This document shows positions 33,257 to 59,497 of a DNA stretch of 64,000 nt, one piece after another. The position numbers were made by a program, and so were the translations under genes. A model generated the notes under the pieces. It saw nothing but the letters and a program-made list of their open reading frames with translations, searched no databases and was not told the origin of the DNA. Each line of letters opens with the position of its first letter. Position 1 is the first letter of the stretch. Origin of the DNA: Fluviicola sp. (GTDB lineage Bacteria > Bacteroidota > Bacteroidia > Flavobacteriales_D > Crocinitomicaceae); NCBI GenBank assembly GCA_002734065.2, contig NVXU02000002.1, positions 1 to 64,000 on the forward strand. The letters are read 5' to 3'.

Positions 33257-34948
33257 ATGAAGAAATCACTCCTTATCATACAAGCCTTACTCTGCATAGG
33301 TTTCCTCTATGCGCAAGATCCAGAAATCATTCTTAGCATAGACCCTGTGTCCGCAGATATTGGTGAATTAATAACCATTACCGTCAAGTCGAATGTACAA
33401 GGAGAATTGGAAATTGACAACCTGCCAAGTTCGTTTGTTCAAGGCTACGATGTCATGAGCGGCATGGAGCAAGAAATGGATTACAACACCGGGAAAGTAA
33501 TCACCTATTATTACATTTCACAAACAGGCGCCATTGGTAAAAAAGGCAAATATACCATCGGTCCAGCTTTTGTGAAAAAAGGCAACAAAACCTACCCGTC
33601 CAATACGATTGTTGTCAATATTGGCGAAAAAACTGAAGTGTCGACGGCAAATGTTACCGCAGACCAGTTAAAAGAACCTGCATTCGGAACTATTCAAACC
33701 AATAAAACAAGTATCTATGAAGGCGAAGCAATTGTCGTTTTTGCCAAAATTTATTCTCACTTTGAACCGACCCATTTAGAAGGTTATCGTTCTTACGAAA
33801 TTCCCGGAACGATTGATAAAAAAGAACTGGGAAACGTAAATCGCATCATTGTTGACAGAGAATATTTCAAAAATATGCAGTTTTACACCTTTGACTACGA
33901 TAAAAATGTGATTTTCCCTTCTGGCACAGGTCAATTTAAAATTTCGCCCTACTCTATGAAGTTGAACCAAAACAGAAAGGGGTATCAATTCAAATCTAAT
34001 TATGCTATTATCACTATTAAACCTTTACCGAACGACCCTCCGAGTGATTTCATTGGCGCGGTTGGCAATTTCACAATAGAGCAAGAAATAGAACAAATTG
34101 ACCTCAACCAAGGGGACGTTTTTAAGATACTCATTCGCATTATCGGCAGTGGTAATTTGCAGAATATTACCGAGCCATCTCCAACTTTACCGAAAGGTTT
34201 TATCATATACGGAGACCCTGAAGTTAAAGAAGATTACATCTACAATTCTCACGGAACTGAAGGACAAATTAGTTATAAATACAACATTCAGGTCAATAAA
34301 TCAGGGGTGACCAAGTTGCCGCCAACGACGGTTTCATTCTTTGATCCTAAGAAAGAAAAATATGTAACGGTTGCTACGGCTACGTCTGAAATTAAGGTGA
34401 AGGAAGATAAAAATTACATTGCTAGCATCGAGGATGAAGAAGTGCAAGAGCTCAATGCGGAAGATTTTATGCGGAAGTCAGAAGTGGTTGAAGATGATTC
34501 TTCCTTTTTTGGAAGTGTTGGCTTTTGGACGGGGGTATCAACCCCAATTTTGGCTTCTTTCCTATTCTTATTTCTTGCTAAAAAACGAGAAGAATCAGCA
34601 GATGAAATTGAGCAAAAAGGCATCGTAAAAAAGAAGAGCAAGCAGGTTGCAACAAGCATGGTCAGTTTAGAATCGCAAATTTCTGGGGCAAACGACAATG
34701 AATTTTATTCTCAAGTAGAAAAATCACTCAAAACAGCCTTGGAAGTTAAAATACCGGCTGGAGAATCAATGAGTAAGAAAGAATTTTTCTCCAAACTCAG
34801 TCAGAAAGTGAAAGAAGAAACCATTAATAAAGCAAAAAATATTTTTGAGAAATGTGACCAATTCAGGTATGGTTTTCCTTCAGATGAAGGTTCAAAGCAA
34901 GCCATTTTGGAAGAATTAAAAACAGTTTTGGAAGAATTAAAAGAATGA
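33257..34948 (+). CDS. batD: BatD family protein
   Basis: Signal peptide, DPVSADIGELITITVKS, SQTGAIGKKGKYTIGPAFVKKGNKTYPSNTIVVNI; position in Bat operon. Confidence 0.92.
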   Translation: MKKSLLIIQALLCIGFLYAQDPEIILSIDPVSADIGELITITVKSNVQGELEIDNLPSSFVQGYDVMSGMEQEMDYNTGKVITYYYISQTGAIGKKGKYTIGPAFVKKGNKTYPSNTIVVNIGEKTEVSTANVTADQLKEPAFGTIQTNKTSIYEGEAIVVFAKIYSHFEPTHLEGYRSYEIPGTIDKKELGNVNRIIVDREYFKNMQFYTFDYDKNVIFPSGTGQFKISPYSMKLNQNRKGYQFKSNYAIITIKPLPNDPPSDFIGAVGNFTIEQEIEQIDLNQGDVFKILIRIIGSGNLQNITEPSPTLPKGFIIYGDPEVKEDYIYNSHGTEGQISYKYNIQVNKSGVTKLPPTTVSFFDPKKEKYVTVATATSEIKVKEDKNYIASIEDEEVQELNAEDFMRKSEVVEDDSSFFGSVGFWTGVSTPILASFLFLFLAKKREESADEIEQKGIVKKKSKQVATSMVSLESQISGANDNEFYSQVEKSLKTALEVKIPAGESMSKKEFFSKLSQKVKEETINKAKNIFEKCDQFRYGFPSDEGSKQAILEELKTVLEELKE

Positions 34949-35667
34949 ATTATTGGATAAAACATATCGCTTTGATCTTCTTCGGGGTTTTGCCCTTCCT
35001 CTCAATGAGCAATTCTACTTTTAGTGAAGGTATAGAGGCATTTAACACGAAAAATTATGCGCTTGCTGCCGATAAATTTGATTCTATCATTTCCATTTCT
35101 CCGAACAATATTTCTGCTTATTTCAACTATGGTTTGGCAAAAATGAAGACCCGAAATTACGGAGAAGCCATTTGGGGGTTTGAGAAAGTATTAAAATTTC
35201 GACCGGCTGACGCAGAAGCAAAAGAGAAACTACAAGAATGTTATTTAGAAATCAACTCCAACGTTTTTTGGGAATATCGTCTGAATGGTTTTCAGTCCTC
35301 GCTGTATTCTATTTCTGCAAATGCTTGGGGATTTTTGGCTGTTCTTTTTGCCCTTCTTTTAGCTGTCGCAATTGTTGTTTTCAGAACGAAACAATCGCAT
35401 TCTACAAGACGAGTAATGTTGCTCATCGGAGCTGTTAGCAGTTTTTTATTGATTTTCTCTATTCTTCTCGGGACGCTTTCTAAAAATCATGCTACTTCTG
35501 ATCGTTTTGCTATTGTTACGGTTAAGAACGTGAAGAGCTTGCAAGATAAGGTGGTAATTGATGAAGGTTCACTTGTGGAGGTTGTAGAGGTTGATGGGGA
35601 TAAGATGAAGGTAGAATTGGATGGAGAAGTATTGTTGGTGAGGTTGGAGGATGTGAGGGTGGTGTAG
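34945..35667 (+). CDS. batE: BatE-like TPR/SH3 protein
   Basis: TPR region, two TMs, C-terminal SH3-like domain; overlaps batD stop. Confidence 0.85.
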   Translation: MNYWIKHIALIFFGVLPFLSMSNSTFSEGIEAFNTKNYALAADKFDSIISISPNNISAYFNYGLAKMKTRNYGEAIWGFEKVLKFRPADAEAKEKLQECYLEINSNVFWEYRLNGFQSSLYSISANAWGFLAVLFALLLAVAIVVFRTKQSHSTRRVMLLIGAVSSFLLIFSILLGTLSKNHATSDRFAIVTVKNVKSLQDKVVIDEGSLVEVVEVDGDKMKVELDGEVLLVRLEDVRVV

Positions 35668-35669
35668 TT

Positions 35670-35711
35670 TTACGCAGAGATTCACAGAGAAGGCACAGAG
35701 ATTCACAGAGG
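35670..35711 (+). repeat. ACAGAG-family repeat R1 (downstream of GxxExxY gene)
   Basis: TTACGCAGAGATTCACAGAGAAGGCACAGAGATTCACAGAGG. Confidence 0.95.
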
Positions 35712-35729
35712 AAGTAGACCGTAAGAAAC

Positions 35730-36104
35730 TCAGGTGCTAATTAATCGTTTTATCCCATCCACCATTTTGGTTTCATTAAAGTTTAGCAACAGACCTAACT
35801 CATAGCCTCCTAAACGCATGTAAGTTAAAACTTGTGCTGAATGTACTTTCCGAAATTGCTCTACTGTTTTGAGTTCAATTACTATTTCATCTTCAACGAG
35901 AATGTCAATTCTGTAACCTTTGTTCAAGGAAATGTCTTTATAAATGATCGGCATTGGTTTTTCAACTTCAATTCTTAGATTTTGTTTTTTCAGTTCATAA
36001 ATTAAACATTCTTGATAAGCAGATTCGAGAAGACCCGGGCCTAATTGTTTATGAACTTCTATTGCACATCCAATAATAATTTTTGACAAGCTATTTCTAA
36101 TCAT
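35730..36104 (-). CDS. GxxExxY protein (PD-(D/E)XK nuclease-like small family)
   Basis: GCAIEVHKQLGPGLLESAYQECLIYELKKQNL, YRIDILVEDEIVIELK. Confidence 0.95.
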   Translation of the reverse strand: MIRNSLSKIIIGCAIEVHKQLGPGLLESAYQECLIYELKKQNLRIEVEKPMPIIYKDISLNKGYRIDILVEDEIVIELKTVEQFRKVHSAQVLTYMRLGGYELGLLLNFNETKMVDGIKRLIST

Positions 36105-36136
36105 TTTTTAATTGTGGGTTGAAAGGTTATGTGGGT

Positions 36137-36178
36137 TTACGCAGAGAACCACAGAGTAGGCACAGAGAAGCACAGAGC
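36137..36178 (+). repeat. ACAGAG-family repeat R2 (upstream of GxxExxY gene, same orientation as R1)
   Basis: TTACGCAGAGAACCACAGAGTAGGCACAGAGAAGCACAGAGC. Confidence 0.95.
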
Positions 36179-36204: not shown

Positions 36205-36245
36205 AAGCTATTTCTAATCATTTTTGATAGTGGTTTTAAAGGTTC
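36205..36245 (-). pseudogene. remnant of a second GxxExxY gene start (MIRNSL...)
   Basis: AAGCTATTTCTAATCATTTTT identical to 36088-36108, the first codons and start of the intact gene; minus reading gives MIRNSLNNFT... then stop. Confidence 0.65.
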
Positions 36246-36370
36246 TCCAATATAAGTTAAGGAAAATTATAAGACTCCACCAAATCAATGGACATTTTTT
36301 ATTAAAGGTAGGTTCGATTATAATCATATTCTAAATAGTGTATTATGGATTAATAAACACCTACCCCCAA

Positions 36371-36412
36371 CTCTGTGAACCTCTGCGCCTCCTCTGTGGC
36401 TCTCCGCGTAAC
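36371..36412 (-). repeat. ACAGAG-family repeat R3, inverted orientation
   Basis: CTCTGTGAACCTCTGCGCCTCCTCTGTGGCTCTCCGCGTAA. Confidence 0.93.
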
Positions 36413-36526
36413 ATTACCAAAACAACACCCACCCAACCCCACTATGATTCTTAACATTTTTTTAATGAATTTCAATTATAGTCCCATTCTAAATAGTGTA
36501 TCGTGAATCAAGAAACACCTACCCAA

Positions 36527-36567
36527 CTCTGTGGACCTCTGTGCCTACTCTGCGGTTCTCTGTGTAA
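36527..36567 (-). repeat. ACAGAG-family repeat R4, inverted orientation
   Basis: CTCTGTGGACCTCTGTGCCTACTCTGCGGTTCTCTGTGTAA. Confidence 0.93.
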
Positions 36568-36625
36568 CATTACCAATACAACACACCTCCCCTGCCATAT
36601 TATTTCCTACCTTTACCCTCAACAA

Positions 36626-37699
36626 ATGAGCACCAAAATAAACATCCGTAACCTTTCTCTCGAAGAATTAAAAAATTCCCTCCAAGAAGTTGGTGAGAAA
36701 ACCTTCCGTGGAAAACAAATTTACGAATGGCTTTGGCAAAAAGATGCCTCTTCTTTTGAAGACATGACCAACCTCTCAAAATCTTTACGGGAGAAGCTTG
36801 AGGATACCTATTACATAGATCACATAACACTGAACGACCAACAAATCAGCTCTGACAAGACCATAAAATGTGCTTTTAGCGTTGACAATAATCAAGTCGT
36901 TGAAGGAGTACTCATTCCAACTCCAAAAAGAACAACTGCTTGCATTTCTTCGCAAATCGGTTGCAGCTTAGCGTGTGAATTCTGCGCAACAGGTAAGCTA
37001 AAGTTAATGCGAAACCTTTCTGCTGGAGAAATCGTTGACCAAGTGGTTTATTTACGTGACGAGGCAAAAAACAGGTACAACAAAAGCCTATCGAACATTG
37101 TCTATATGGGTATGGGAGAACCTTTGCTCAATTACAAAAACATGCTGCGTTCTATTGAGTTGATTACCTCTGAAGAGGGTCTTGGAATGTCGCCAAAGCG
37201 AATCACCGTTTCAACTGCAGGTATTGCCAAAATGATTAAAAAATTAGGTGATGATAATGTGAAATTCAACCTTGCGCTTTCTTTACATGCTGCCAACGAT
37301 AAAAAGCGTAGCGAAATCATGGAAATCAATGACTCTAATAATTTAGCCGCGTTGCGAGAAGCTTTGCAATATTTCCATGAGAAAACTGGAACCCGCGTGA
37401 CTTTTGAATACATCATTTTCAAAGATTTTAATGACTCAATTGAAGATGCCCAAGAATTAGCAAAGTTTGCCAAATGTGTTCCTTGTAAAATTAACATTAT
37501 AGAATACAACCCAATTGATGATGGAATATTCCAAAAGACAAGTAAAGAAAGAACAGACGCTTTCGCTAACTATTTAGAAGATAGAAACATGATTGTTCAT
37601 GTAAGAAGGAGCCGTGGAAAGGACATTGATGCAGCTTGCGGACAGTTAGTCAATAAAAACGGTGCTATTTTGAAAGAAGATAGAGCAATGAAGAAGTAG
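36626..37699 (+). CDS. rlmN: 23S rRNA (adenine-2503-C2)-methyltransferase
   Basis: Radical SAM CEFCATGKLKLMRNLSAGEIVDQV, VYMGMGEPLLNYKNM; start set at 36626 because the 41 aa extension translates repeat R4. Confidence 0.96.
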   Translation: MSTKINIRNLSLEELKNSLQEVGEKTFRGKQIYEWLWQKDASSFEDMTNLSKSLREKLEDTYYIDHITLNDQQISSDKTIKCAFSVDNNQVVEGVLIPTPKRTTACISSQIGCSLACEFCATGKLKLMRNLSAGEIVDQVVYLRDEAKNRYNKSLSNIVYMGMGEPLLNYKNMLRSIELITSEEGLGMSPKRITVSTAGIAKMIKKLGDDNVKFNLALSLHAANDKKRSEIMEINDSNNLAALREALQYFHEKTGTRVTFEYIIFKDFNDSIEDAQELAKFAKCVPCKINIIEYNPIDDGIFQKTSKERTDAFANYLEDRNMIVHVRRSRGKDIDAACGQLVNKNGAILKEDRAMKK

Positions 37700-59330: not shown

Positions 59331-59370
59331 TTCTGGCACCTCTTTGCTCTGTGAAACTCTGTGTCAATAT
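59331..59370 (-). repeat. ACAGAG-family repeat R5, inverted, degenerate
   Basis: GGCACCTCTTTGCTCTGTGAAACTCTGTGTCAAT. Confidence 0.8.
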
Positions 59371-59428
59371 AGAGCTTTAGAGTATTGGAGCATTAGAGCT
59401 TTGGAACTGACTTCTTATAAAAACCTAC

Positions 59429-59497
59429 TCAACTCTGTGGAACTCTTCCGAAAAGTCGGAACAAGTCGTGCCTTCTCTGCGGTTCTCTGTGTCAATA
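59429..59497 (-). repeat. ACAGAG-family repeat R6 interrupted by a ~21-bp insert with hairpin TCCGAAAAGTCGGA
   Basis: AACTCTGTGGAACTCT[TCCGAAAAGTCGGAACAAGTC]GTGCCTTCTCTGCGGTTCTCTGTGTCAA versus R4. Confidence 0.85.

Follow-up and report, generated by a model that had tools for sequence, protein, structure and literature searches.

A GxxExxY nuclease gene framed by phased repeat boxes: a candidate gene-plus-repeat element of bacterial chromosomes

Why does a small gene of the GxxExxY family stand among several copies of one short, regularly phased repeat in a Fluviicola genome? A preliminary description of the locus had seen the gene bracketed by two direct copies of this repeat and had suggested that it acts on the repeats or spreads with them. 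Two questions follow: do the gene and the repeats form one spreading unit, and could the encoded protein recognise the repeats?

Gene order and box copies at the locus

The locus lies in the window (the whole stretch of DNA analysed, 64,000 nucleotides) between a batE-like TPR gene (ORF at 34945..35667, plus strand), which we used for synteny, and rlmN (36626..37699, plus strand), beside whose start codon a CCTACCTTTA element remains. The GxxExxY gene (35730..36104, minus strand) encodes 124 residues. A four-unit box, R1 (35670..35710, plus strand; CRCAGAG units at 35673, 35683, 35694 and 35704), reads toward the gene, and another, R2 (36137..36177, plus strand), lies near the gene's 5' end and points away from it. 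The two are 83% identical and on the same strand on either side of the ORF, as the preliminary description had it, and the CAGAG motifs do recur at the period of 10-11 bp that it had given. The gene is not bracketed by a simple direct pair, since two further boxes, R3 (36371 to about 36408-36411, minus strand) and R4 (36527 to about 36564-36567, minus strand), lie opposite to R1 and R2 and bring the copies to four. The full order is R1-> gene(-) R2-> <-R3 <-R4, with R1 as the left and R3 as the right inverted-repeat arm.

R4 is the tandem duplicate of R3: repeat comparison shows a duplication of 158-bp period on the plus strand, whose first copy (36313..36428) holds flank and R3 and whose second (36471..36584) holds flank and R4. 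Boxes frequently lie within larger tandem duplications (period of about 80-175 bp) that take in the flank, e.g., at loci L276 and L118 and at G098:C124:4389-4925. R2 is missing in the two nearest species, and alignment with the nearest of all (G014) breaks at about 117 extra bp that hold R2 at the 5' end of the gene. Because this segment sits between two perfect direct copies of 21 bp on the plus strand (left copy, AAGCTATTTCTAATCATTTTT, 36088..36108; right copy, from repeat comparison, 36205..36225), R2 is most likely a box that was inserted later, possibly together with a duplication of its target site. Before that, the layout would have been R1-> gene <-R3, as in two related species, for which we infer the same orientation and in one of which (G031) the gene is broken. 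The R3/R4 pair would probably be a tandem duplication later than this original unit.

The 19 full copies aligned from this genome define a discrete box of 38-41 bp with four CRCAGAG 7-mers that follow one another at steps of 10, 11 and 10 bp, roughly one turn of the helix each (consensus TTN-CRCAGAG-N3-CRCAGAG-NAGG-CRCAGAG-N3-CRCAGAG). Conservation begins at the TT and ends with the last unit. Among related loci, spacers of 3-4-3 are by far the commonest of 125 combinations, followed by 2-4-2 and 2-5-2. A CRISPR array is ruled out, because these are 7-mers with gaps of 2-5 nt, as opposed to repeats of about 21-40 bp with unique spacers of similar length.

Boxes are dispersed well beyond the locus. 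The pattern CACAGAG-N3-CACAGAG, with at most 2 mismatches, matches 10 times in the window, where 0.23 matches would be expected and none of 100 shuffles gives as many, and the two-unit motif occurs 40 times in the 3.49-Mb genome as against 0 for the pattern read backwards. About 25 further boxes are found in the genome besides those at the locus; none of the 32 two-unit sites checked in this genome falls inside an ORF of at least 110 aa. When 521 bp from the locus were searched against its own genome, significant matches were, with few exceptions, confined to the box, so that the dispersed item is the box and not the gene. Solitary, gene-less and partly broken copies are also present in the window itself (59347..59491, minus strand). 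Several boxes are interrupted at about one internal position by a palindrome of ~21 nt (CCCGAAAGGTCGGGACAAGTT and variants), which looks like the insertion of another small repeat (window 59419-59491; G000:C5 near 36860; G000:C41 near 113590). Adjacent arrays tend weakly to face each other (27 convergent vs 18 divergent), and a strong rule to this effect was dropped, as was a spacer complementarity (AAC...GTT) in this genome's consensus that proved inconsistent between copies. A role as transcription terminator is not favoured, because the order is the reverse of a terminator's, with a T-run ahead of the box and an A-run behind facing boxes.

Association of gene and arrays across genomes

We surveyed 80 named GxxExxY loci from Bacteroidota, Ignavibacteria, Chlorobi, Planctomycetes, Verrucomicrobia, Anaerolineales and Proteobacteria, scoring as an array at least two CRCNRAG units within 400 bp of the gene. 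Arrays were found at 73 of the 80, and 16 of 18 loci outside Bacteroidota were array-positive; at the same 80 loci the reversed motif was found near 4 and another control motif near 1. Array density falls from 6.9 per kb within 100 bp of the gene to 0.06-0.12 per kb at distances above 1 kb. For motif-free discovery, fixed-lag high-identity autocorrelation was too strict because spacers vary, and it was replaced by chained-unit counts: in 59% of 172 loci a single 7-mer formed a chain of five or more copies, compared with 0.6% of shuffles, and the top 7-mers were CACAGAG, CACAAAG, CGCAAAG and CGCAGAG. The enrichment of repeats near GxxExxY genes that the preliminary description had proposed to look for thus exists across genomes.

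Gene and boxes are also associated at the level of whole genomes. GxxExxY is present in 51 of 119 relatives: it was found in 13 of the 15 that have two or more GAG-type sites vs 38 of the other 104 (p=4e-4), and in 12 of the 15 that have three or more CACAAAG-type sites vs 39 of the other 104 (p=0.004). Counting against a gene-plus-repeat element, four genomes (G009, G022, G071 and G075) carry boxes without detectable GxxExxY, and solitary boxes do not always resemble the flanks of the resident genes, as with CGCGGAG in G052.

Array units point toward the gene on both sides (87 inward vs 22; p=2.5e-10), and mutually inverted flanks are found at 65% of the core GxxExxY loci and 63% of the divergent ones, compared with 2% of control ORFs. 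A record from Bacteroides finegoldii gives a clean example (TTCACCACAGAGGACGCAGAGGACACGGAG - gene - CTCTGTGACCTCTGTGTCCTCTGTGGTGAA). The inverted layout (-> gene <-) is the rule, so a model with direct repeats alone is rejected, and the direct pair first described reflects R2, an extra copy of this genome. The same genome has a second, divergent GxxExxY gene (G000:C6:224725-225057) with arrays of a different class (CGCTGAT / GCAGAT) on both sides; elsewhere (G051:C10:165220-166269; L183 / L044) two GxxExxY copies of equal score are separated by 699 bp and surrounded by repeated palindromic box pairs.

Comparison of gene neighbourhoods shows that gene and boxes arrive together. In three species of the window's genus the gap between batE and rlmN measures 958, 855 and 765 bp and contains both, whereas in 17 other species it measures 26-217 bp and contains neither; the empty sites expected in relatives are there. 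Between radA and a gene for an FAD protein, five genomes that lack GxxExxY have a gap of 5-90 bp, and two that carry it have a gap of about 480-520 bp. These two insertions carry arrays of different unit classes, which suggests separate events, and the junction is possibly a recurrent insertion site. At this junction, L301, from another genus, has a broken GxxExxY gene with GAT-class arrays, and B. finegoldii has a GAG-class unit. The only candidate target-site duplication seen is the 21-bp one around R2, the empty-site comparisons elsewhere being too diverged. In three genomes (G018, G020 and G025; L178, L177 and L176) whose batE-rlmN gap lacks GxxExxY, the gap holds other AT-rich imperfect tandem arrays of ~10 nt, ATTCATAATTC-like. 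A tblastn search gave no match in phage records, and 8 matches found in plasmid records were all typed non-mobilizable; on these results phage origin and plasmid spread were both rejected.

A gene that nearly always lies between facing copies of its own repeat, with loose copies genome-wide, suggests an undescribed gene-plus-repeat element that spreads in chromosomes. We think it probable, with some reserve, that the locus is one copy of such an element, in which inverted arms of four-unit boxes frame the gene of a GxxExxY nuclease that would act on the boxes. The proposal that the gene spreads with the repeats is supported by cross-phylum co-localisation, by insertion as a block and by unit types that track protein clades.

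The protein and the competing explanations

The product of the gene matches the PF13366 (E=2.5e-43) and TIGR04256 (E=3.3e-45) profiles, above the curated cut-offs of both (147.6 bits vs 22 and 153.2 vs 35, respectively). These were its only profile matches, so it is no HUH/Y1 transposase, and as it is the only gene among the ORFs of the unit, there is no transposase or recombinase gene inside. Alignments of 27 and 70 homologues show G22, G24, E27, Y30, D67, E77, K79, Q91 and Y95 to be invariant; the protein thus carries both the G-x-x-E-x-x-Y motif and the D...ExK catalytic residues (E27, D67, E77-x-K79, Q91-x3-Y95). By these motifs it is a compact PD-(D/E)XK nuclease with a complete active site of the Cas4/lambda-exonuclease type. 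Its AlphaFold model (pLDDT 96.1, pTM 0.88) has Cas4 SSO0001 as the top Foldseek match (4ic1 chains, probability 0.91-1.00), followed by lambda-type exonucleases, with modest E-values (2e-3 to 1e-2). The match to Cas4 at the sequence level is weak (E=0.28), and in the 70-sequence alignment the four-cysteine iron-sulphur set of Cas4 is absent, C33 being the sole near-invariant cysteine. In open-access full text (5.39 million papers for GxxExxY), two papers mention GxxExxY in passing, one contains PF13366, and no description of the repeats was found; subscription papers may hold more.

Intact nuclease motifs and phased sites make it plausible that the protein binds or cuts the boxes. GxxExxY would bind units of its own type, either along one DNA face or in a single-stranded hairpin formed by facing boxes, and would then cut or process the box. 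Repair or replication after the cut could copy boxes to new sites often and the whole gene unit rarely. More tentatively, GxxExxY proteins may be the first known PD-(D/E)XK nucleases to recognise phased head-to-tail 7-mer arrays, spreading themselves and, in trans, gene-less boxes; they may form one branch of a wider selfish class of small proteins with phased arrays that includes S23-like four-helix-bundle genes with units of their own.

That wider class came into view through a control. The PF05635 four-helix-bundle genes of related genomes were intended as a negative control, and none of the 28 loci had CRCNRAG arrays, against the 73 of 80 at GxxExxY loci (Fisher p=1e-19). Their flanks are nevertheless inverted: 70% of 23 loci exceed all shuffles, vs 2% of control ORFs, and by eye the flanks of L243-L272 consist of other phased units of ~9-10 nt, e.g., TTCCGATTTTCCGA, GTGATTAGTGGTTAGTG and CAATAGGCAATAGG. 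The Fluviicola genome itself has 9 PF05635 (23S_rRNA_IVP) matches, e.g., G000:C25:31847-32164. As these arrays are comparable but different, it is conceivable that one host machinery acts on all arrays of this kind. Under this explanation, host or phage machinery multiplies phased inverted arrays, and GxxExxY and four-helix-bundle genes are merely caught between two of them; that GxxExxY is the sole enzyme in the unit also speaks in its favour. We regard it as unlikely, though worth keeping in mind, because the two families do not share units and because unit type follows the GxxExxY clade. Unit class (RAG/AGG, GAT/AAT or TAG) requires 5 changes on the protein tree vs at least 12 in 300 shuffles, with TAG represented by three loci only and GAT/AAT by 12. 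The finer distinctions behave in the same way (GAG vs AAG, 19 changes vs at least 24; CAC vs CGC, 10 vs at least 13), and the unit compositions of left and right arrays within a locus are correlated (r=0.61-0.88). Distinct units per family and their tracking of clades point to family-specific recognition. The agreement between unit class and clade shows co-inheritance and is consistent with recognition without proving it; simple joint inheritance of gene and arms would produce it too, which counts against a nuclease acting on its boxes. Each family may have an array of its own, or one machinery may serve many arrays.

The boxes could instead be operators that GxxExxY itself, or a regulator, uses to control its own gene, while solitary boxes control others. 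Phasing of the units to one DNA face, a position often just upstream of the start codon, and the stronger conservation of units than of spacers (1.81 vs 1.36 bits per column over the 19 copies) would all fit. Yet inverted boxes lie downstream too, gene and boxes arrive as a block, and a PD-(D/E)XK nuclease with an intact active site would be an unusual repressor. Furthermore, of eight orthologous gene-less sites in two species that are about 90% identical, one keeps its box, others have altered boxes and three have none in the second species, with some alignments poor and gain not told apart from loss. We therefore hold this explanation to be improbable.

Still less probable is that GxxExxY is a phage-defence nuclease, with boxes that label or shield the cell's own DNA or serve simply as the nuclease's vehicle. 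The Cas4-like fold, weak matches to PADLOC Cas4 profiles (E about 0.003) and the patchy distribution among relatives speak for it; at this locus, however, the neighbours are batE and rlmN, with no defence genes beside the unit, and we know of no defence system with this layout. Least credible of all is an array that acts as a structured RNA or as the RNA partner of a toxic nuclease (similar to type III toxin-antitoxin systems): repeats do adjoin a nuclease gene and long hairpins are possible between facing boxes (z=-7.2 and -4.2 in two palindromic pairs from relatives), but arrays of opposite orientation lie on both sides of the gene, the single box R1 does not fold (z=0.26, so that a single-box hairpin was rejected), Rfam covariance models gave 0 matches at E<=1, solitary boxes occur on both strands and the fold is of the DNA-exonuclease/Cas4 type.

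Comparison with known systems

The link between GxxExxY and repeats across phyla offers a concrete substrate hypothesis for a family without assigned function. It also opens a way into a large group of intergenic repeats, phased at ~10 bp and so far unexplained, in Bacteroidota, Planctomycetes, Chlorobi and others, and the analogous arrays at four-helix-bundle genes suggest that the principle is broader.

Parts of the proposed element have counterparts in several known systems. The protein shares with Cas4 and lambda exonuclease (RecB-type) the E...D...ExK...QxxxY motif and the fold; it differs from them in having 124 residues, no iron-sulphur cysteine set, and neither CRISPR nor a recombination partner alongside. 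Homing endonuclease genes are likewise free-standing nuclease insertions in which the nuclease is the likely driver. Homing enzymes cut the empty allele, whereas the recurring sequence here is the flanking box, which is absent from the empty batE-rlmN site. Insertion sequences and MITEs resemble the unit in being short, in having inverted terminal repeats and gene-less derivatives and in inserting as a block between genes. Unlike them, the GxxExxY unit has no transposase, its ends are degenerate phased arrays instead of one fixed terminal repeat, and no regular target-site duplication is seen, the empty-site comparisons away from R2 being too diverged. The intervening sequence of 23S rRNA, with its S23 four-helix-bundle protein, has been called a selfish element with a small ORF (PMC4990558). 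A small ORF within the element is common to both, and the S23 relatives studied here also have phased arrays; the S23 protein is unrelated to GxxExxY, and its element sits in rRNA helices, not between protein genes.

The closest parallel is with RAYT genes and their REP sequences (REPINs): here too a single-copy nuclease gene is framed by inverted short repeats that have many gene-less intergenic copies. RAYT is an HUH/Y1 transposase (PF01797), whereas the GxxExxY protein has PD-(D/E)XK motifs. REPs are palindromes of 20-40 bp with a conserved tetranucleotide at the end (PMC3733652; see also PMC3116915), and the box is non-palindromic, with four phased 7-mers head to tail. On this analogy the best reading is of an element RAYT/REPIN-like in its logic but built on a PD-(D/E)XK nuclease, which would give bacterial chromosomes a second possible route, besides RAYTs, to gain dispersed repeats.
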